Of a stretch of DNA of 64,000 nt, positions 48,577 to 58,884 are shown piece by piece. The stretch covers positions 1 through 64,000 of the forward strand of contig NZ_MTHD01000004.1 of assembly GCF_001956855.1 (NCBI RefSeq). Direction: 5' to 3'. Every line of letters starts with the position of its first letter. Position 1 is the first letter of the stretch. The notes beneath the pieces were generated by a model. It worked only from the letters and a program-made list of their open reading frames with translations. It had not been told where the DNA came from and searched no databases. Source of the DNA: Azonexus hydrophilus. GTDB taxonomy: Bacteria > Pseudomonadota > Gammaproteobacteria > Burkholderiales > Rhodocyclaceae. The translations under genes were made by a program, and so were the position numbers.

Positions 48577-49371
48577 ATGCAGCAATACCTCGACTTGATG
48601 CGCCACGTCCTGGAAAACGGCCAGGACAAATCCGACCGTACCGGCACCGGCACCCGCTCGGTTTTCGGCTGGCAGATGCGTTTTGATCTGGCGCGCGGCT
48701 TTCCCGCAGTGACAACGAAGAAGCTCCACCTCAAGTCGATCATTCACGAATTGCTGTGGTTCCTCCAAGGCGACACCAACATCGCCTACCTGAAGGAAAA
48801 CGGTGTCCGCATCTGGGATGAATGGGCCGACGAAAATGGCGACCTCGGACCGGTTTACGGCAAGCAGTGGCGGCGCTGGGAAACGCCGGACGGCCACCTG
48901 GTGGACCAGATCGCCCAACTCGTGCACAGCCTGAAACACAACCCGGATTCGCGCCGGCACATCGTTTCAGCCTGGAATCCGGGCGACGTGGACCACATGG
49001 CACTCCCGCCCTGCCATTGCCTTTTCCAGTTCTACGTCGCCGACGGCAAACTCTCCTGCCAGCTCTACCAGCGCAGCGCCGACATCTTTCTCGGCGTGCC
49101 TTTCAACATCGCATCGTACGCACTGCTGACGCTGATGCTGGCCCAGGTCTGTGGCTACCGGCCAGGGGAATTCATCCATACCTTCGGCGACGCGCACCTG
49201 TATTCCAATCATTTCGAACAGGCCCGCCTGCAGTTGACGCGGACAACGCGCGAACTGCCGACGATGTGGATCAATCCTGCGGTCAAGGACATCTTTTCCT
49301 TCAAATTCGAGGATTTCCGACTCGACGGCTACGATCCTCACCCGCACATCCCGGCACCGGTTGCCGTCTGA
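48577..49371 (+). CDS. thyA: Thymidylate synthase
   Basis: A 264-residue enzyme methylating dUMP with methylene-tetrahydrofolate. It has the catalytic cysteine in [12 protein letters not shown], folate and dUMP contacts ([19 protein letters not shown]) and the C-terminal PVAV. Full length (Escherichia coli form is 264). It is followed after 2 bp by pgi and then folA, with folA regenerating tetrahydrofolate used here. Confidence 0.98.
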
Positions 49372-49373
49372 CC

Positions 49374-50966
49374 ATGGGGCGACTGACCACCACGGCCGCC
49401 TGGCAGGCACTGGAAAAACACGCTGCCGAGATCAGTCCGTTGCACCTGCGCGGCATTTTTGCCGCCGATCCGCAGCGCTTCACCCGGTTGTCGCTGGCGC
49501 ATGGACAGTTTTTCATCGATTTTTCCAAACAACGCATCACCCCCACGACCCTGACACTGCTTCGCCAACTGGCTGAACAAGCTGACTGGCAGGGCTGGAT
49601 CGCCCGCATGCGCAGCGGCGAGGCAATCAATCACACCGAAAACCGTGCCGTCGGCCATTGCGCACTACGCGCCGGCCCCCAGGCCCCGGCAGAAGTCCGC
49701 CACGTCCTCCGACGGATGGCCGATTTCTGCGAGCGTATCCATGATGGACAGTGGCGAGGATTTTCCGGTGAGCGCATCACCGATATCGTCAATCTCGGCA
49801 TCGGCGGCTCGGATCTGGGACCGCGCATGGCGGCACAGGCTCTGGCGTCCTTCCAGCAACCTGACCTGAGGGTGCATTTCGTCTCCAACCTGGACAGCGC
49901 AGATCTGGCTGGAACACTTTCCCGCCTGAACCCGCGCACGACGCTGTTCATTGTCGCCAGCAAGACCTTCACGACGCTGGAAACCCTGACCAACGCCCGC
50001 ACCGCGCGCCACTGGCTGCTCCATGCCGCCGGCGACGACAGCGCCATCAGCCGGCATTTCGTCGCCGCCTCGACCAATCTCGCCGCCACAGGCGAATTCG
50101 GCATCGCGCCGGAAAATGTCTTCCCTTTCAGCGACTGGGTCGGTGGCCGTTTTTCGCTGTGGTCGTCAATCGGCCTGCCAATCGCCCTGGCCGTCGGCTT
50201 CCGCAACTTTGAGCAGTTGCTCGCCGGTGCCCGCGACATGGACGAACATTTCTTCTCGGCACCAGCCGAGCACAACCTGCCATTGACACTGGCGCTGGTC
50301 GGCCTGTGGAACACCAATTTCCTGAATGCCCACAGCCACGGCATCTTTCCGTACAGCCACTCACTGGGTCTGCTACCCGCCCATCTCCAGCAACTGGAAA
50401 TGGAAAGCAACGGCAAACGCATCGACCGCGATGGCCTACCGGTGGATTACGCAACCAATCCGGTACTGTGGGGCGAACCCGGTACCAACGGGCAGCATTC
50501 CTTCTTCCAGTTGCTGCACCAGGGCAGCGCGCTGGTGGCCTGCGATTTCATTGCCCTCGGCAAATCGGATTTTCCGTTACCCGGCCACCACAGCGGCCTG
50601 CTCGCCAACTGCCTGGCCCAGTCCTCAGCCCTGGCTTTCGGCCAGACTGCGGACGAGGCACGGGCCGCCGGCATCGACGAAGCCCTGGTCGCCTACCGGA
50701 CCTTCCCCGGCAACCAACCGTCGACCACCATCATCCTGCCCGAACTGACACCGTTCACGCTGGGCCAGCTGATCGCACTCTACGAACACAAGGTGTTCTG
50801 CCTCGGTGCCCTGTGGAACCTCAACGCCTTCGACCAGTGGGGTGTTGAACTGGGCAAACAACTGGCCAGCCGCCTGGCGCCGACCATCCGCGGCGAACGC
50901 CCGGATGACGATCTCGACGCCTCCACTCGCGGCCTGATTGCCCACCTTCATCAATTCCGGAACTGA
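49374..50966 (+). CDS. pgi: Glucose-6-phosphate isomerase
   Basis: A 530-residue glycolytic or gluconeogenic isomerase. Signatures are NLGIGGSDLGPRMAAQAL, VASKTFTTLETLTNA, FSDWVGGRFSLWSSIGLP and the late NAFDQWGVELGK. Start ATG 49374 is 2 bp after thyA; the frame is open upstream inside thyA but not used. Its position between thyA and folA is unusual. Confidence 0.96.
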   Translation: MGRLTTTAAWQALEKHAAEISPLHLRGIFAADPQRFTRLSLAHGQFFIDFSKQRITPTTLTLLRQLAEQADWQGWIARMRSGEAINHTENRAVGHCALRAGPQAPAEVRHVLRRMADFCERIHDGQWRGFSGERITDIVNLGIGGSDLGPRMAAQALASFQQPDLRVHFVSNLDSADLAGTLSRLNPRTTLFIVASKTFTTLETLTNARTARHWLLHAAGDDSAISRHFVAASTNLAATGEFGIAPENVFPFSDWVGGRFSLWSSIGLPIALAVGFRNFEQLLAGARDMDEHFFSAPAEHNLPLTLALVGLWNTNFLNAHSHGIFPYSHSLGLLPAHLQQLEMESNGKRIDRDGLPVDYATNPVLWGEPGTNGQHSFFQLLHQGSALVACDFIALGKSDFPLPGHHSGLLANCLAQSSALAFGQTADEARAAGIDEALVAYRTFPGNQPSTTIILPELTPFTLGQLIALYEHKVFCLGALWNLNAFDQWGVELGKQLASRLAPTIRGERPDDDLDASTRGLIAHLHQFRN

Positions 50967-50967
50967 C

Positions 50968-51462
50968 ATGCCCGAAATCATCCTCATCGCCGCCATCGCA
51001 CGCAATGGCGTCATCGGCAAGGACAACCGCCTGCTCTGGAACATTCCGGAAGACATGGCACACTTCAAGGCACTAACGGCCGGCCATGCCGTATTGATGG
51101 GACGCAAGACCTGGGAGTCACTGCCGGAACGTTTCCGTCCACTTCCCGGGCGCCGCAACATCGTGATCAGCCGGCAAACCGATTACGTGGCCCCTGGTGC
51201 AGAAGTGGCCATGACGCCCGAAAAGGGGATATCCATCGCGTCGACCGCAGAAAAGCTGTTCGTTATCGGAGGGGCAGAAATCTATGCCTTGATGCTGCCG
51301 CTGGCCGACCGCCTTGAACTCACCGAGGTGGACCTGGCCCCCGACGGAGACGCATGGTTTCCCGAAATACCGCAGGAGCGCTGGGAAATCACTGCAAGCA
51401 GCTCGGCAGTATCGGCTTCCGGCGTCCCGGTCTGCTTCAAGTCGATGCGTCGCCGTCCCTGA
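50968..51462 (+). CDS. folA: Dihydrofolate reductase
   Basis: A 164-residue enzyme reducing dihydrofolate. Motifs are IAAIARNGVIGKDNRLLWNIPEDM (conserved start), LMGRKTWESLP, RRNIVISRQ and FVIGGAEIYAL. It starts 1 bp after the pgi stop and its own stop abuts the stop of the converging FecR gene with no gap. Confidence 0.96.
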   Translation: MPEIILIAAIARNGVIGKDNRLLWNIPEDMAHFKALTAGHAVLMGRKTWESLPERFRPLPGRRNIVISRQTDYVAPGAEVAMTPEKGISIASTAEKLFVIGGAEIYALMLPLADRLELTEVDLAPDGDAWFPEIPQERWEITASSSAVSASGVPVCFKSMRRRP

Positions 51463-52761
51463 TCAGCGTCCCAGCGCTGCGCTGCCTTTGATCGCATCTT
51501 CATTGAATGGCGTAACGCTATAGGACACGCCAACATACTGTGCATTCGTCCCGACAAACATGCCGGATGCCGACCCTGTCCCCAAGGCACCGTCATCCAG
51601 TGCTGCGAAGGCAAAGGTCTGGCTGGTCGTCATCGGGGCCAGCGCCTGCGTGAAGGTGTAGGAATTGCCGGCAACAGTAACCCCCAGGTTCAGCGTCAGG
51701 GCCATCGTGCCGGCACCAAAGTTGGCCTGCATCGTCGCCGTATTGAGGCTGCCTGCGACCCCCTGTGTATTGACGGGTGTCGAACCGCCAATCAGTGAAT
51801 AGGTATAGGTACCGGCGCCAAGACCTGTCAGTTCGCTCATGGGCGTCAGCTTGCCGACCACGTAATGGAAATTCGGTATCGCCGTACCATCTTCCCGTAC
51901 CCCGTTGCTCCAGCGCCCCCAGCCAATCACGCCATCCCGGCTGCTGGCCTGCGCGGTACCACCGGTCAGTGCAAACGAGTGAGGCGCGCTGTCAGCCCTC
52001 GTCAGCAAATCGAAATTGTTGAATTGTGCGGTCACGCCTGCCTGGGTTGCCGGCCCGGCAACATTGCTCGCATGAACCATGGTGTACCCCGGTCCGGAAG
52101 CCATGGTCTGCAATTGCGTTTCCCCCGCGGCAAATGGCGGCCTGAGATCATCCGTCACCGGCTGCGCCGGATCAAGGCGCGGCCGACTGTCGGTCAATTT
52201 CGGCGCCTCCTCGCTCCCGCGCACGACAGCCGCCTCACCGCTGGAAACCAGCACGCAACCGGCCTTGTTGCACACCTCGATACGCCCCTCTCCGGTAGCG
52301 ACGGCAATGGTCTCGGGATCAAGATAACTGATCGTGTATTCGGTACCACGAATCCCGATTGTCGCCACCGATGTGGTGACTTTATAGCGATCACGATTAC
52401 TGCGCCCGATCAGGCCGGTAATGGTCCGCAAACCACCCTTGAGCAGGCTGAAGAAACCGGCTTCGCTACCGTCAGCCTGGCCGGAAAACTGGTAGTCATC
52501 AAGGCGGAACTCGCTGCCGGGTTGCAGCGACAGCATCCCGCCATCGGAAAAACGCAACTGCGCCCGACCATCGCGACCGGTCTGCACCGTTTCGCCGGAT
52601 TGCAGTTCGCTGCCTTTGGCCAGTTGCCGGGCCAGCCCGGCTGGAGACAAGGCTCGCACTTCGCCAGTTGCGAAATCGAGTCGCGCCGCCGAAGCCGCCG
52701 AAGCCATTACGGGTAACAGACCAAGGAACAGGAAAGCCAGAATTCGGATTGGATGTTTCAT
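51463..52761 (-). CDS. FecR-domain protein fused to a TbpB-like C-terminal beta-barrel
   Basis: A 432-residue exported protein: signal peptide (1-25), FecR domain (about 55-155, with TSVATIGIRGTEYTISY), a C164-x4-C169 pair, a linker (about 185-265) and a glycine-rich beta domain (about 275-432). The end, GSASGMFVGTNAQYVGVSY (396-414), resembles the closing strands of the small barrels in transferrin-binding-protein-like Slam substrates. It is the last gene of a three-gene cassette behind a Slam-like protein. GGAG precedes the ATG. No lipobox is seen, so it would be a soluble exported protein. Function is inferred. Confidence 0.7.
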   Translation of the reverse strand: MKHPIRILAFLFLGLLPVMASAASAARLDFATGEVRALSPAGLARQLAKGSELQSGETVQTGRDGRAQLRFSDGGMLSLQPGSEFRLDDYQFSGQADGSEAGFFSLLKGGLRTITGLIGRSNRDRYKVTTSVATIGIRGTEYTISYLDPETIAVATGEGRIEVCNKAGCVLVSSGEAAVVRGSEEAPKLTDSRPRLDPAQPVTDDLRPPFAAGETQLQTMASGPGYTMVHASNVAGPATQAGVTAQFNNFDLLTRADSAPHSFALTGGTAQASSRDGVIGWGRWSNGVREDGTAIPNFHYVVGKLTPMSELTGLGAGTYTYSLIGGSTPVNTQGVAGSLNTATMQANFGAGTMALTLNLGVTVAGNSYTFTQALAPMTTSQTFAFAALDDGALGTGSASGMFVGTNAQYVGVSYSVTPFNEDAIKGSAALGR

Positions 52762-52775
52762 CGTGAGTCTCCGGA

Positions 52776-54092
52776 TCAAAACTCGCGACGAATGGCGAGC
52801 GACACCACTTCGCGGTGATAATCGTTGAGTTCAAGGTTGGAGCGATTGAAGGTCAGTGACAACTGCGGCGTCAGCGTCCAGTCGCTGGCTATCGCATGCG
52901 TGGCGCCAAGAACGACACCGTACTGATCATCCTGCCGCCCCAGATCCGCAGGCAGTGCTTTTGCGTAGGCCCTTCGCTCGTAAGAGACGCCACCAAAAAA
53001 GATGGTTTTTTCGTCAACGCTCAAGCGCCCCCCCAGACGCATGCCGTAACCGTCAAACCGATGCTGGCTGTTGTGAGGCCTCTCCGGGCTTTCATTCAGC
53101 AGATATGCACTGCCAAACGCGACCGCCCCTTCCCGCCACATGTGTGCATAAGAAATGCCACCAAGGCGACGGGTCACGTCGCGTTGCCGGTTGGTCAGGT
53201 AGTTCATCTCGGCATACTGTCCGAAAATGCTGACCTGGTTTCTGGCATCGAGATTGTGCTGCCACTGCCCGGTCACGCCGAAAACGGACCGATAGTTGCT
53301 GCTCTCCAGGGTTACCAGGCCGGCCTGTCCCATCAGGGTCAGGACATTCCTGCCAAGGCTGACGACTGCTCCGGCATTCGCATCGGCACTGCCGATATTG
53401 AACTGTCCCTTGTCGAAATTGCCTCGGGACGAACCCGATACTCCGGCGAGAAAACTCAGGTTGGCATTGACCGGCAAACTGGCGTTGGCCCCAGCGCCCA
53501 ATTGGGCAAAAACGTCCTCATTGGCCTTCACGTCTGGTGGCAGGGGAACGCTGAAACCGCTGGGAAAGGTAATGCTGGAGCGATTGGGGCCCGCATTGAC
53601 ATTCGAGTCGTAGCCGAACTGCGCCTCGACATAGCCGTTGAGCGTTGCTCTTTCGCCTTTTTCCATCCGCTTCGCTGCCGCGATGTAACGCTCCAACGTC
53701 AGCGACACATCCGCCGGCACCCCCTGACGACGGACTGTTTCAAATTCCTGTCGCGCCGTTTCAGCTTCGCCAAGGGCCAGATAGGCCCGGGCGATTTCGG
53801 CGCGCGCCCGTAAATTGGAGGGATCAAGTGCGAGCACGCGTTCCAGTGCGAATACCGCCCGTGTATTTTCGCCAACTTCCAGCGCCGCCAGACCGAGCAG
53901 GAAATCATAATAGGTATCTCCGGCCCGCTCACTTTCTCGTGACTCGAGCAGCTCCCAGGCAGCACGCCCTTTGCCTTCATCAAGCAGTTGCCGCCCCTGA
54001 TCGACAACTGTATCGGCAAAACCAGGCGAGGAAGCCAGGACCAGCAGCACCCCAAACACTGTCCCGATCAAGTTTCCCTTATTCACTTGCAT
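52776..54092 (-). CDS. Slam-like outer-membrane protein (TPR plus beta-barrel)
   Basis: A 438-residue outer-membrane protein: signal peptide (1-26), TPR-type helices (about 28-150; YYDFLLGLAALEVGENTRAV, ALDPSNLRARAEIARAYLAL), then a barrel of alternating beta-strands starting at GYVEAQFGYDSNVNAGPN and ending in RREF, an outer-membrane terminal phenylalanine. The TPR-DSNVN-barrel layout is that of surface lipoprotein assembly modifiers (Slam), which move proteins to the cell surface. Placed between two FecR genes (31 and 14 bp gaps). Confidence 0.72.
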   Translation of the reverse strand: MQVNKGNLIGTVFGVLLVLASSPGFADTVVDQGRQLLDEGKGRAAWELLESRESERAGDTYYDFLLGLAALEVGENTRAVFALERVLALDPSNLRARAEIARAYLALGEAETARQEFETVRRQGVPADVSLTLERYIAAAKRMEKGERATLNGYVEAQFGYDSNVNAGPNRSSITFPSGFSVPLPPDVKANEDVFAQLGAGANASLPVNANLSFLAGVSGSSRGNFDKGQFNIGSADANAGAVVSLGRNVLTLMGQAGLVTLESSNYRSVFGVTGQWQHNLDARNQVSIFGQYAEMNYLTNRQRDVTRRLGGISYAHMWREGAVAFGSAYLLNESPERPHNSQHRFDGYGMRLGGRLSVDEKTIFFGGVSYERRAYAKALPADLGRQDDQYGVVLGATHAIASDWTLTPQLSLTFNRSNLELNDYHREVVSLAIRREF

Positions 54093-54123
54093 TCCCCTTT
54101 TTTATCAGCCTTGTGCGGCACGC

Positions 54124-54834
54124 CTAGAACTTCCCATGCCTCCCGGCAGGCAACGGCGGCGCCTCCCCAGCCATACCAGCAGGCGGCCTCACTTGTTCCC
54201 CTGCCTCAAGCTTCAGAGGCACATCCGGGACCGCCTGGATGGCGTCCGCGCCTTTGCCATCATTCTCCCTCAGCCTGGGCGCCTCATCCAGACTACGTAC
54301 CCAGACTTCCTTTCCCCCCGGAACATCGACACATCCGACCTTGCTGCACACTTCGACGATACCGACATAGGTTCTGACCACGAGACCGGCACCGTCAAGT
54401 TCGGCGCTGTACTCCGTACCTCGGATGCCAATGGTCGCAACGGTGGTTCCCAACTGGTATTGCTTGCGATCACGCTTGCCCAGCCAACCGGTGACTGTAC
54501 GCAAGCCTCCCTTGACCAGGGTCATCAGGACACCATCTTCCGCCACAGCCTTGTCACCTGCCGTGTAGCGGAAACGGTCAACCCGGAAAGTGGTACCCGG
54601 CTGCAATGACATCGATGCGCCGTCGCGAAAACGTAACTGGACTCGTCCGTCGCGGGTCTCAATGGTTTCTCCGGCCAGAACGTCAGCACCACGGAGGAGT
54701 TGCCGTGAAACTCCATTTTCGGCCAACACGACCGGTTGACCGGAAAAAAAGACAACCGATGCCGCAGGCCCGGCGAATACCGGGAGTGCCCAGAAAAGGG
54801 ATAGCAGCGTGATTATTGCCGCGCGCAGCACCAT
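54124..54834 (-). CDS. FecR-domain periplasmic protein
   Basis: A 236-residue exported protein with signal peptide (1-21) and a FecR domain (about 52-158, QLGTTVATIGIRGTEYSAEL) that is clearly paralogous to the one at 51463, including the C163-x4-C168 pair. The tail is proline-rich and has no barrel. Classic FecR transmits iron signals to an ECF sigma factor, but no sigma or receptor gene is present here and there is no membrane anchor beyond the signal peptide. It starts 19 bp after the decarboxylase stop. Confidence 0.78.
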   Translation of the reverse strand: MVLRAAIITLLSLFWALPVFAGPAASVVFFSGQPVVLAENGVSRQLLRGADVLAGETIETRDGRVQLRFRDGASMSLQPGTTFRVDRFRYTAGDKAVAEDGVLMTLVKGGLRTVTGWLGKRDRKQYQLGTTVATIGIRGTEYSAELDGAGLVVRTYVGIVEVCSKVGCVDVPGGKEVWVRSLDEAPRLRENDGKGADAIQAVPDVPLKLEAGEQVRPPAGMAGEAPPLPAGRHGKF

Positions 54835-54848
54835 GAGAACCCCTTCTC
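54835..54848 (-). promoter_or_regulatory. Hairpin presenting the Shine-Dalgarno of the first FecR gene
   Basis: On the minus strand GAGAA (54844-54848) pairs with TTCTC (54835-54839) around the loop GGGG, which together with the preceding A forms the ribosome-binding site. The stem ends directly at the ATG. The stem is only 5 bp, so regulatory effect is uncertain. Confidence 0.35.
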
Positions 54849-54853
54849 GTGAA

Positions 54854-57082
54854 TTAACGAACGCAGTCTACGTAATACGCTCCATCCGCGCCTTTGACAA
54901 GACCATGAATATCGGTTTCGAACCCGGGGAAGGCGGCATTGAACTCACGCGCAAACTTCAGGTAATTGCAGATCTTGGCGTTGAAGCGCTCGCCCGGAAT
55001 CAGCAGCGGAATACCCGGCGGATACGGGGTCAGCAGCACCGCGGTGACCCGGCCTTCCAGCGCATCGACCGAGACGCGCTCGATCTCGCGGTGCGCCATG
55101 CGGGCAAAAGCATCGGCTGGACGCATCGCCGGCACCATGTTCGACAGGTACATCTCGGTGGTCAGGCGGGCCACGTCGTTTTTCTTGTACACCCCATGAA
55201 TCTGCGTACACAGGTCGCGCAGGCCCATGCGCTCGTAACGCGGATTTTTCTGCACGAATTCGGGCAGCACCTTCCACAGCGGATGATTCTTGGCGTAATC
55301 GTCCTTGAACTGCTGCAGCGCGGTGACCAGCGTGTTCCAGCGGCCCTTGGTGATGCCGATGGTGAACATGATGAAGAAGCTGTACAGGCCGCACTTCTCG
55401 ACGATGACGCCGTGCTCGGCCAGGTACTTGGTGACGATGGCGGCGGGGATGCCGATGTCGTCGGAAAAATCGCCGTCGACGTCGAGGCCCGGGGTAATGA
55501 TCGTCGCCTTGATCGGGTCGAGCATGTTGAAACCATCGGCGAGATTGCCGAAACCGTGCCAGCGCTCGCCCGGCTTGAGCATCCATGCCTCGCGCTCCTC
55601 GATGCCTTCTTCCGACAGGTCATCCGGGCCCCAGACCTTGAACCACCAGTCGGCGCCCCACTCCTGCTCGACCTTACGCATGGCGCGGCGGAAATCCAGC
55701 GCTTCGCCGATCGATTCCTCGACCAGCGCGGTGCCGCCCGGCTCTTCCATCATCGCCGCGGCGACGTCGCAGGAGGCGATGATGGAATACTGCGGCGAAG
55801 TCGAGGTATGCATCAGGTAGGCCTCGTTGAAGATGTCGCGGTCGAGCTTCTGGTTCTCGGCATCCTGGACCAGAATCTGCGACGCCTGGCTCAAGCCGGC
55901 CAGCAGCTTGTGCGTCGATTGCGTCGAAAACACCATCGATTCTTTGCAGCGCGGGCGGTCGGCGCCGATTGCATGGTAGTCACCGTAGAAATCGTGGAAA
56001 GCAGCGTGCGGCAGCCAGGCTTCGTCGAAATGCAGCGTGTCGATCTTGCCATCGAGTTCGGCCTTGATGTCCTCGACGTTGTAGAGCACGCCGTCGTAGG
56101 TCGACTGGGTGATGGTCAGCACGCGCGGCTTGGCGCTCTTGTCGGCGATGAAGGGGTTGGCGGCGATCTTGGCCTGGATGCTCTCCCAGGAAAACTCGCT
56201 CTTCGGGATCGGCCCGATGATGCCGAAATTGTTGCGGGTCGGCATCAGGAACACCGGGATCGCGCCGGTCATCATGATCGCGTGCAGGATGGACTTGTGG
56301 CAGTTGCGGTCGACGACGACGATGTCGCCCGGGGCGACGGTCGAATGCCAGACGATTTTGTTCGACGTCGAGGTACCGTTGGTGACGAAATACAGGTGGT
56401 CGGAATTGAAGATTCGTGCAGCGTTGCGTTCCGAGGCGGCGACCGGGCCGGTGTGATCGAGCAACTGGCCGAGCTCTTCCACCGCATTGCACACGTCGGC
56501 GCGCAGCATGTTCTCGCCGAAGAACTGGTGGAACATCTGGCCGACCGGCGACTTCAGGAAGGCGACGCCACCCGAGTGGCCGGGGCAGTGCCAGGAGTAG
56601 GAACCGTCGGCGGCGTAATGGACCAGCGCCCGGAAGAACGGCGGCGGCAGCGAATCGAGGTAGGCGTTGGCTTCGCGCTTGATGTTGCGGGCGATGAATT
56701 CCGGCGTGTCCTCGTGCATGTGGATGAAGCCGTGCAGCTCGCGCAGGATGTCGTTGGGAATGTGACGACTGGTACGCGTTTCACCATGCAGGAAGATCGG
56801 GATTTCGGCATTCTTGTGGCGAATCTCGCCAACGAAGGCGCGCAGTTCGGCCAGCGTCTCTTCCGGTTCAAGCGCCAGCTCCTCGTCGTCGATCGACAGG
56901 ATGAAGGCGGATGCCCGCGACTGTTGCTGGGCGAACGAGGTCAGGTCGCCGTAGCTGGTGACGCCCAGCACTTCCAGTCCCTCTTTTTGCATGGCGTCGG
57001 CCAAGGCGCGAATCCCCAGACCCGAAGCATTTTCGGAGCGGAAGTCTTCGTCGATGATGATGACCGGAAAATGGAAGCGCAT
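54854..57082 (-). CDS. Arginine/lysine/ornithine decarboxylase (biodegradative type)
   Basis: A 742-residue fold-type I PLP decarboxylase of the acid-stress/polyamine family. An N-terminal wing domain (about 1-130, receiver-like), the PLP core with lysine in STQSTHKLLAGLSQ, HFDEAWLPHAAFH, and the C-terminal domain are all complete. Substrate (Lys, Orn or Arg) cannot be assigned from sequence by eye. apbC-dcd-decarboxylase order is typical of betaproteobacteria. It is preceded by a hairpin and followed 19 bp later by the FecR cassette. Confidence 0.92.
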   Translation of the reverse strand: MRFHFPVIIIDEDFRSENASGLGIRALADAMQKEGLEVLGVTSYGDLTSFAQQQSRASAFILSIDDEELALEPEETLAELRAFVGEIRHKNAEIPIFLHGETRTSRHIPNDILRELHGFIHMHEDTPEFIARNIKREANAYLDSLPPPFFRALVHYAADGSYSWHCPGHSGGVAFLKSPVGQMFHQFFGENMLRADVCNAVEELGQLLDHTGPVAASERNAARIFNSDHLYFVTNGTSTSNKIVWHSTVAPGDIVVVDRNCHKSILHAIMMTGAIPVFLMPTRNNFGIIGPIPKSEFSWESIQAKIAANPFIADKSAKPRVLTITQSTYDGVLYNVEDIKAELDGKIDTLHFDEAWLPHAAFHDFYGDYHAIGADRPRCKESMVFSTQSTHKLLAGLSQASQILVQDAENQKLDRDIFNEAYLMHTSTSPQYSIIASCDVAAAMMEEPGGTALVEESIGEALDFRRAMRKVEQEWGADWWFKVWGPDDLSEEGIEEREAWMLKPGERWHGFGNLADGFNMLDPIKATIITPGLDVDGDFSDDIGIPAAIVTKYLAEHGVIVEKCGLYSFFIMFTIGITKGRWNTLVTALQQFKDDYAKNHPLWKVLPEFVQKNPRYERMGLRDLCTQIHGVYKKNDVARLTTEMYLSNMVPAMRPADAFARMAHREIERVSVDALEGRVTAVLLTPYPPGIPLLIPGERFNAKICNYLKFAREFNAAFPGFETDIHGLVKGADGAYYVDCVR

Positions 57083-57101
57083 GGTGTATCCCCAAAAGCG
57101 G

Positions 57102-57121
57102 CGACCCGCCGCAGCGGGTCG
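57102..57121 (-). terminator. Hairpin between dcd and the decarboxylase gene
   Basis: CGACCCGC (57102-57109) pairs with GCGGGTCG (57114-57121) around CGCA. On the minus strand only a short TTTT follows after a few bases, so it may be a weak terminator or attenuator. Confidence 0.5.
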
Positions 57122-57152
57122 AAGAATAAGCTGTTTACGTTACAGGCAGTGG

Positions 57153-57719
57153 TCAGATCTTGGGCAGGGTGACGCCTTCCTGCCCCTGGTACTTGCCGCC
57201 ACGATCCTTGTACGAGGTTTCGCAGACCTCGTCGGACTCGAAAAACAGGACCTGCGCACAACCCTCGCCGGCGTAGATCTTGGCCGGCAACGGCGTCGTG
57301 TTGGAAAACTCGAGGGTCACGTGACCTTCCCATTCCGGCTCGAACGGGGTCACATTGACGATGATGCCGCAGCGGGCGTAGGTCGATTTGCCGAGGCAGA
57401 CGGTCAGCACCGAGCGCGGAATGCGGAAATATTCCATGGTCCGGGCCAGCGCGAACGAGTTTGGCGGAATGATGCAGACGTCGGATTCGATCTCGACGAA
57501 GGACTTGGGATCGAAATTCTTCGGGTCGACCACAGTCGAGTTGATGTTGGTGAACACCTTGAATTCGCGGGCGCAGCGGATGTCGTAGCCGTAACTGGAA
57601 GTACCGTAGGAAACGATCTTCTGGCCGTTGGCCTCGCGCACCAGCTCCGGCGAGAACGGCTCGATCATGCCGTGCTCCTGGGCCATGCGGCGTATCCACT
57701 TGTCTGATTTGATGGTCAT
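57153..57719 (-). CDS. dcd: dCTP deaminase
   Basis: A 188-residue enzyme converting dCTP to dUTP for thymidylate supply. Motifs match: [21 protein letters not shown]-type start, [34 protein letters not shown], and [20 protein letters not shown] with the catalytic glutamate. Complete length. It lies after a terminator that isolates it from apbC. Confidence 0.96.
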
Positions 57720-57729
57720 TTTTCCCTGC

Positions 57730-57739
57730 TGCGGTCGAC
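57730..57739. repeat. Intergenic copy of the dispersed decamer TGCGGTCGAC
   Basis: One of 17 copies seen in the window. Plus-strand copies begin at 8252, 22984, 28012, 29222, 38005, 56305, 57730 and 61488; minus-strand copies begin (lowest coordinate) at 10340, 30588, 30792, 32426, 38770, 41388, 46462, 51240 and 62440. This copy lies in noncoding DNA between dcd and its upstream terminator. The motif holds the palindrome GTCGAC. Confidence 0.6.
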
Positions 57740-57740
57740 A

Positions 57741-57769
57741 AAAACAAAGGCGGGATTTTACCCGCCTTT
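57741..57769 (-). terminator. Terminator of apbC
   Basis: AAAGGCGGG (57746-57754) pairs with CCCGCCTTT (57761-57769); on the minus strand GTTTTTG follows. It separates apbC from dcd. Confidence 0.78.
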
Positions 57770-57792
57770 GTTGCCCTGCATGTCGACAAAAA

Positions 57793-58884
57793 TCAGGTGT
57801 TCTGCACGACGATGTTCGGGAACTTCGACGTCATGTCCTTGGCCTTGTCGGCAATCTTGATCGCAACCCGGCGGGCGATCGTACGGTAGATTTCTGCCGC
57901 CTTCGAATCCGGCACCCCAACCACGGTCGGCTTGCCGCCGTCGGCCATCTGGCGGATGGCCATTTCCAGCGGCAGGCTGCCGAGGAATTCGACATCGTAG
58001 TCCTTGCACATCTGCTCGCCGCCACCTTCGCCGAAGATATGCTCGGCGTGGCCGCAGTTCGAACAGACGTGGATGCTCATGTTCTCGACGATGCCGAGGA
58101 TGGGGATGTTCACCTTCTCGAACATCTTCAGGCCCTTGCGCGCGTCGATCAGCGCGATATCCTGCGGCGTCGTGACAACGACAGCCCCGGTCACCGGCAC
58201 CTTCTGCGCCAGCGACAACTGCGTATCGCCAGTACCCGGCGGCATGTCGACGATCAGGTAATCGACATCGCGCCAGTTGGTCTGCGTCAGCATCTGGTCG
58301 AGCGCCTGGGTGACCATCGGGCCGCGCCAGACCATCGGCGTCTCGACATCGATCATGAAACCGATCGACATCGCCTGCAGGCCGTAGGCTTCGAGCGGCT
58401 CCATGCTCTTGCCGTCGGCCGATTCCGGCTGCTTGCCGGCCAGACCCAGCATCTGCGGCTGCGACGGACCGTAGATGTCGGCATCCAGCAAGCCAACCGT
58501 AGCCCCTTCCTGGGCCAGCGCCAGCGCCAGATTGACGGCAGTCGTGCTCTTACCGACGCCACCCTTGCCGGAAGCGACGGCGATGATGTTCTTGACCCCC
58601 GGCAACAGCTTGACACCCATCTGCACCGAATGCGCAATGATCTTGCTGTAGACGTTGGCCGACACGTTGCCGACGCCCGGCACAGTCCGGACAGCCGCGA
58701 TCACCAGCTTGCGCAGGGTATCGATCTGGCTTTTCGCCGGGTAACCGAGTTCGATGTCGAAGGAGACGTCGTCGCCATCGATCCTGATGTTGCGCACCGT
58801 CTTGCCGGCAACGAAGCTTTTGCCGGTATTGGGGTCGACCGTTTCGGCCAGGACATTCTTGACTTGCTGTTCAGTAAGACTCAT
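57793..58884 (-). CDS. apbC: Iron-sulfur cluster carrier ApbC (Mrp/NBP35 family)
   Basis: A 363-residue P-loop ATPase that delivers Fe-S clusters. An N-terminal DUF59/MIP18-like domain (about 1-85) precedes the ATPase with a deviant Walker A ([13 protein letters not shown]), [10 protein letters not shown] and the C-terminal cluster-binding pair in HVCSNCGH. Together with ErpA at the left end it represents part of Fe-S maturation. Own terminator follows. Confidence 0.95.

Follow-up and report, generated by a model that had tools for sequence, protein, structure and literature searches.

Slam exporters, which belong to type XI secretion (T11SS), combine a tetratricopeptide-repeat (TPR) domain with a 14-stranded barrel (PMC5449769, PMC7857515). 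In reconstituted form, Slam1 translocates TbpB through a bilayer in the unfolded state, in a model in which Slam recognises the C-terminus of its cargo (PMC9090332). Classical T11SS cargo is mostly lipid-anchored, and soluble cargo also exists (PMC12282271). Seven T11SS exporters are reported to have been verified experimentally, all of them from the animal-associated cluster 1 (PMC12282271); for the other nine clusters, mostly from water and soil organisms, there was no characterised protein in 2021 (PMC8406197). A 2025 survey of clusters 1 and 3 describes roughly ten cargo architectures, and none of those set out in its abstract and section 15 is headed by a FecR domain (PMC12282271). In the present work we analysed 64,000 nucleotides of Azonexus hydrophilus DNA (the window; contig NZ_MTHD01000004.1, positions 1 to 64,000), which hold, at 51463-54834, a three-gene cassette encoding a putative exporter of the SlipAM family (P0002), a partner with a FecR domain and a C-terminal barrel (P0001), and a small FecR-only protein (P0003).

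We consider it likely that this cassette is a T11SS of the Slam family, belonging to a FecR-associated subfamily, with P0002 as the translocon, P0001 as its cargo and the FecR domain as a proposed tether. The word FecR is absent from the main texts of PMC12282271, PMC8406197, PMC5449769 and PMC7857515, and literature searches pairing FecR with the full SlipAM name or with 'retention module', whose scope excluded subscription papers and preprints, found no such report.

Results

The cassette and its putative exporter

The three genes lie on the minus strand, tightly packed with gaps of exactly 31 and 14 bp, as given in a preliminary description made from the DNA alone. P0003 (54124..54834, 236 aa) comes first, followed by P0002 (52776..54092, 438 aa) and P0001 (51463..52761, 432 aa); the 14 bp gap between the latter two requires that P0001 starts at the ATG at 52761 and not at the upstream TTG at 52779. 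By eye, all three N-termini resemble Sec signal peptides, and the FecR domains of P0001 and P0003 are indeed paralogous, the two proteins being 46% identical over query residues 9-214.

P0002 matches SlipAM (PF04575) with 44.6 bits, against a Pfam cut-off of 22, over positions 4-288 of the 288 in the profile, and TPR_19 also lies above its Pfam cut-off (38.4 bits). In the AlphaFold2 model (53 sequences; predicted local distance difference test, pLDDT, 89.5), TPR-type helices at residues 28-145 (53658..54011, minus strand), predicted to be periplasmic, precede fourteen long strands between residues 150 and 437, so that the modelled barrel takes up residues 150-438 (52779..53645, minus strand). 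The protein ends in Phe and carries the motif GYDSNVN, in which G160, D162 and N164 are invariant across 29 aligned exporters. SlipAM is matched by 52 of the 53 aligned homologues at E ≤ 0.001, and the nearest named exporters, up to 70% identical, are Dechloromonas and Azonexus records. The earlier proposal of an outer-membrane TPR-plus-barrel protein of Slam layout with a terminal F thus holds, and what would have spoken against it, a match to an unrelated porin family devoid of Slam similarity, was not found, SlipAM being matched above its cut-off over the whole profile.

The putative cargo and its FecR domain

The AlphaFold2 model of P0001 (43 sequences, pLDDT 88.8) comprises an all-beta FecR domain (residues ~26-190, 52192..52686, minus strand), a flexible linker (residues ~191-222, 52096..52191, minus strand) that is disordered at about 202-216, where pLDDT falls below 50, and a well-modelled domain at 223-431, in which most 10-residue blocks exceed pLDDT 90. 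This last part (residues 223-432, 51466..52095, minus strand) is modelled as a handle followed by an eight-stranded barrel, its strands running from 317 to 431; the segment 303-432, aligned to the isolated fHbp barrel (4ayn_B), contains exactly eight strands. The best Foldseek matches of P0001 in the PDB are FecR-type regulators (4m0n, 1.3e-6) and TbpB (4qq1, 1.4e-6), then HphA (8gmm, 1.8e-4) and fHbp, and VIA relates the C-terminal domain to NHBA (Z 13.0), the TbpB C-lobe (12.7), fHbp (12.6) and HpuA (11.4). As modelled, this domain therefore has the Slam-cargo fold, the handle-barrel of TbpB, fHbp, NHBA and HpuA, in line with the barrel-like C-terminus that had been anticipated for it; no fold other than a barrel emerged. 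At the sequence level, the P0001 profile reaches the TbpB chains of the PDB with E 0.007.

FecR (PF04773, cut-off 24) is matched by P0001 with 45.9 bits and by P0003, which has a Pro-rich tail, with 35.6 bits, and it is the sole Pfam family above cut-off in either protein. An anti-sigma regulator reading of the two was discarded, as Pfam finds neither an anti-sigma nor an STN part in them. In the VIA comparison, the FecR fold of P0001 aligns with the periplasmic domain of PupR (6ovk_R) with Z 15.8 (residues 54-201, 134 residues, root-mean-square deviation 2.6). Two further likenesses were seen in NCBIfam: the first half of FecR weakly resembles LapA retention modules (NF033682) in 43 of 43 P0001 homologues, and there is FecR-type similarity to the leptospiral surface proteins Lsa33 and LipL45 in 42 and 43 of the 43, respectively. 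The P0001 profile also matches 5ix9, a PDB entry named 'antifreeze protein' (E 6e-5), the matched part presumably lying near the N-terminus of a giant adhesin that binds ice. Since 5ix9 does not appear among the 50 structural matches listed per P0001 search (Foldseek, VIA), we claim no shared fold with that adhesin.

FecR as a recurrent partner of SlipAM exporters

Of 200 genomes sampled from the order, 52 have SlipAM, at 71 places in all, each of which was fetched with its flanks. These places yielded 69 barrel open reading frames (ORFs) of at least 220 aa, corresponding to 68 genes (L091 is counted twice; L126 has no barrel ORF, and one shorter fragment each was dropped in L089 and L133); eight regions that had been picked for FecR (L043, L052, L136-L141) are excluded from these 69. 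The barrel, FecR and C-terminal models used in the search were built from P0001 and P0002 and then iterated, so that distant forms are undercounted.

A FecR gene lies within 1 kb of 50 of the 69 barrel ORFs, where 0.4-0.8 would be expected by chance if a genome holds 5-10 FecR genes, and in 47 cases it is situated directly downstream on the same strand. Within this distance, FecR is fused to the C-terminal domain in 37 cases, occurs without that domain in 12 and is encoded separately from it in one; five barrel ORFs have a FecR-less barrel cargo, and 14 have no partner, eight of which (L128-L135) come from genomes whose SlipAM scores are the highest. Among the named loci, the 80 best of 259 and thus a set skewed to close relatives, FecR is found within 1 kb of 82 of 84 barrel ORFs, the remaining two ending 209 and 216 bp before the end of their contigs. 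At the phylum level the exporter profile was matched in 122 of 398 genomes, in many through the TPR alone; 40 fetched places there comprise 23 with FecR (two fused, 21 unfused), 12 with barrel-type cargo only and five with neither. Unfused FecR partners thus account for 12 of 69 barrel ORFs at the order level and 21 of 40 at the phylum level. In many FecR-only partners the C-terminal tail is rich in Pro and Gly, as in P0003, and some others end in barrel-looking sequences that the barrel model missed. An upstream FecR-only gene like that of P0003, for which an accessory role had been suggested, is present, in the same gene order, in nine of the 80 named loci. FecR is therefore a recurrent partner of a whole branch of SlipAM exporters, whether or not a barrel is fused to it; the survey bears out conserved co-occurrence, and this adjacency across loci backs the translocon and dedicated cargo that had been suggested for P0002 and P0001.

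In a converse search of 2678 ORFs, a clean barrel model, built solely from 98 FecR-linked barrel segments, also found ORFs without FecR, in L095, L119 and L135. The match in L135 (E 9.8e-8) is a TbpB_B_D protein adjoining a high-scoring SlipAM gene.

Domain order, lipobox and exporter phylogeny

All 117 fused ORFs have FecR N-terminal to the barrel, and the edges of the FecR and barrel models are at least 60 residues apart in 96 of 98 non-redundant cargos; in two of the 98, one protein has as many as four barrels in tandem. The leader of P0001 has no Cys and so no lipobox. By a strict pattern, none of the 98 non-redundant FecR-headed cargos has a lipobox, as against eight of the 21 candidates without FecR (Fisher p 2.6e-7); these candidates were picked at a loose threshold (21-22, depending on the pattern), and some of them are probably spurious.

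In a quick midpoint-rooted tree of 169 non-redundant exporters, one branch of 144 rows (Shimodaira-Hasegawa-like approximate likelihood-ratio test 99) contains 133 of the 134 FecR-linked exporters, together with seven partnerless ones and four with FecR-less cargo. The remaining 25 rows comprise one FecR-linked exporter, 12 with no partner and 12 with FecR-less cargo. With partnerless rows set aside, FecR linkage requires five changes on the tree. In a sub-branch of 15 rows (L255-L268 and others), the partners are FecR-only throughout and have long, low-complexity, Pro/Gly-rich tails and no recognised barrel; it is possible that these tailed proteins form a different class of cargo.

Some loci depart from the common arrangement. 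In L095 (776-5984; G124:C39), a truncated FecR protein of 155 aa overlaps a 1584-aa four-barrel protein that starts with a leader-like sequence. This is possibly a natural fission, perhaps through the FecR domain itself; the second half of a split FecR may have gained a signal peptide of its own, a reading suggested by a very weak profile match at this one locus. Three-barrel cargos without a FecR hit are present in L252 (7180-10242) and L253 (7135-10755), and their N-termini may be strongly diverged beta domains of the FecR type (7.8 and 4.7 bits). The locus is also present in two metagenome-assembled genome records (L163 and L196) labelled Bordetella parapertussis and Klebsiella pneumoniae, labels that look doubtful.

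Chromosomal setting

The host genome (3.60 Mb, 17 contigs) has a single SlipAM gene and five FecR places above cut-off. The cassette is flanked upstream by genes for ApbC (apbC), dCTP deaminase (dcd) and a lysine/arginine/ornithine decarboxylase-type enzyme, the last separated from P0003 by 19 bp, and downstream by genes for dihydrofolate reductase (folA) and thymidylate synthase (thyA); these are NCBIfam matches, those for folA and the decarboxylase falling short of the family cut-offs. One or more of the five neighbours recur in 21 of the 80 named loci, 19 of which have the decarboxylase, and the order apbC-dcd-decarboxylase-[FecR]-exporter-cargo-folA...thyA, which spans 48577-58884 in the window, is partly recurrent in these 21. 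The 2025 survey reports that folate and thymidylate genes lie in the vicinity of T11SS genes (PMC12282271); given the partial recurrence of the gene order, this enrichment may in part reflect an old chromosomal position and not a shared function. A haem or iron uptake locus was considered and dropped, no haem or TonB gene being among the five neighbours; a TonB receptor was sought there and in the ORF list. One promoter-like and five terminator-like sites were counted, against 1.2 and 4.5 in shuffled sequences; as the counts are not in excess, we claim neither a promoter nor a terminator.

Discussion

By the scheme we favour, the Sec pathway would bring all three proteins into the periplasm, where the TPR domain of P0002 would reside, with its 14-stranded barrel in the outer membrane as the translocon. 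The handle-barrel of P0001 would serve as a Slam-type targeting and surface domain and cross the membrane through or beside P0002, an export step for which the analogy to Slam1 and TbpB provides the rationale. The FecR domain would fold and stay in the periplasm and tether the surface barrel by means of the flexible linker, much as retention modules hold LapA-type adhesins, and P0003 would be a free periplasmic FecR protein, perhaps docked on the TPR domain of P0002. As P0001 has no lipobox, there should be no lipid to hold it, unlike in classical surface lipoproteins. Periplasmic retention modules are known to hold LapA and a type Vb adhesin (PMC6890996, PMC13090378), and the periplasmic domain of PupR docks on an outer-membrane receptor, for which both its subdomains are needed (PMC7186176). 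Taking together the absence of a lipobox, the FecR-first order, the spacing between FecR and barrel, the PupR-like fold and the likeness to LapA modules, we propose FecR as the anchor. The generalisation that a FecR plug in the periplasm behind the exporter replaces the lipid as the retention device of environmental T11SS cargo, with FecR-only proteins as free or non-barrel plugs, we put forward as a tentative idea, whose chances we place somewhat below even.

A number of observations pull against assigning the cassette to T11SS with a FecR tether. The sequence likeness of the cargo to known cargo is weak: slam_lipo (NF041636) gives 15.4 bits on P0001, against a cut-off of 80, and is found at E ≤ 0.1 in eight of 43 homologues (best 7.5e-8), and TbpB_B_D is found in one of the 43 (E 0.002) and not in P0001 itself, while L086 and L099, two further TbpB_B_D proteins, escaped the clean barrel model. 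On the exporter side, the top Foldseek matches are BcsC, FadL and OmpG, and no entry named Slam is among the 50 matches listed; a PDB sequence search returned TPR proteins and OmpX-type barrels, with none named Slam among the best 60 of 99 matches. The Slam-specific TPR model PF24575 does not match P0002, and it matches two of 53 homologues (best E 6.8e-4); for this reason we place P0002, judged by its sequence, in the wider SlipAM/T11SS family and not among the classical Slams. The pairing has its exceptions too: 19 of the 69 order-level barrel ORFs have no FecR within 1 kb, the locus is patchy (SlipAM is present in one, G187, of five other sampled genomes of the window's family), and the separate genes for FecR and the four-barrel cargo in L095 mean that a covalent FecR-cargo linkage is not universal. 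With regard to the tether, P0001 reaches 30.6 bits on retention_LapA (NF033682), below the cut-off of 50 and over half of the model (10-68 of 145), a true LapA-type retention module is encoded elsewhere in the host genome (L291, G000:C14:1337-1762, 99.4 bits) and offers an internal standard against which to set the FecR domain, and a looser lipobox pattern is found in seven of 98 FecR-headed and 11 of 22 FecR-less cargos.

The same findings can be arranged in other ways. If the entire cargo were translocated, to be shown at the surface or released, FecR would be an effector or ligand-binding domain like the other variable N-termini of T11SS cargo, which typically precede a C-terminal barrel and can belong to non-lipidated, soluble proteins (PMC12282271); the leptospiral surface proteins with FecR-type similarity would fit in well. 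We nevertheless judge this rather unlikely, as FecR is what stays constant in the pairing, even in the unfused partners counted above, and being kept where the barrel is missing makes it unlike a variable effector; in addition, its closest solved fold is a periplasmic domain. Alternatively, the FecR proteins would act as a periplasmic gate, adaptor or signalling partner of the TPR domain, with the fused barrel as a plug or regulator and no surface display at all. The barrel-less partners with Pro/Gly-rich tails that accompany the whole 15-row exporter branch point in this direction, as does PupR, in which the periplasmic domain binds that of an outer-membrane receptor (PMC7186176). However, cargos with up to four tandem barrels are easier to reconcile with surface display than with a plug, P0001 has no anti-sigma domain, and STN, which PupR needs for binding (PMC7186176), is unmatched by Pfam in P0001, so that we regard such a role as improbable.

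Most remote is the notion that P0002 is a TPR-barrel for polysaccharide or of the porin type, akin to BcsC, EpsL or BBP2_2, with unrelated neighbours. The first Foldseek matches are BcsC and FadL, and 35 and 30 of the 53 aligned homologues match EpsL and BBP2_2, respectively, but general barrels reach high scores through their fold alone, and in P0002 SlipAM is the sole barrel family to pass its curated cut-off (BBP2_2 19.1 of 23.7, EpsL 22.4 of 275), which disfavours a plain porin or polysaccharide channel. Moreover, the partner gene has, by its model, the Slam-cargo fold, and the adjacency is kept across the tree. We therefore rate this explanation as very improbable and retain an exporter with a FecR-tethered cargo as the likeliest reading.

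The cassette provides a concrete and conserved exporter-cargo pair for environmental bacteria, and the FecR partner domain offers a handle for finding more cargo, even where no barrel is recognised. How non-lipidated T11SS cargo is kept on the cell also becomes a testable question. If retention by FecR is true, periplasmic retention would extend from type I (LapA) and type Vb (whose retained adhesin we take to be CdrA) to type XI secretion.

Among the systems to which the cassette can be compared, the FecR/PupR sigma regulators share the periplasmic FecR fold, but P0001 has a signal peptide where they have a mid-protein membrane helix, a barrel where they have the STN subdomain, and no anti-sigma domain reported by Pfam. 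With LapA-type adhesins, P0001 has in common the order of its parts, an N-terminal periplasmic-type domain, a spanning linker and a C-terminal export signal, as well as the sub-threshold likeness in the first half of FecR. LapA, however, uses type 1 secretion and a module cleavable by LapG (PMC6890996, PMC13090378). A LapG-type cleavage motif was tried and rejected: P0001 has FAAG after FecR, but by eye the aligned linkers show no conserved TAAG-type site. The soluble T11SS haemophores (hemophilin/HphA) resemble P0001 in being non-lipidated cargo of the same fold (8gmm), and differ from it in that P0001 has a FecR head and that no haem or TonB gene is among the neighbours examined. The Slam1 and Slam2 systems of Neisseria (T11SS cluster 1), with TbpB, LbpB, HpuA and fHbp, share both the TPR domain with a 14-stranded SlipAM barrel and an adjacent cargo with a handle and an eight-stranded C-terminal barrel. 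In contrast to them, the exporters described here carry PF24575 in just two of 53 cases and form a separate branch of the exporter tree, and their cargos are lipobox-less, FecR-headed and equipped with up to four tandem barrels.

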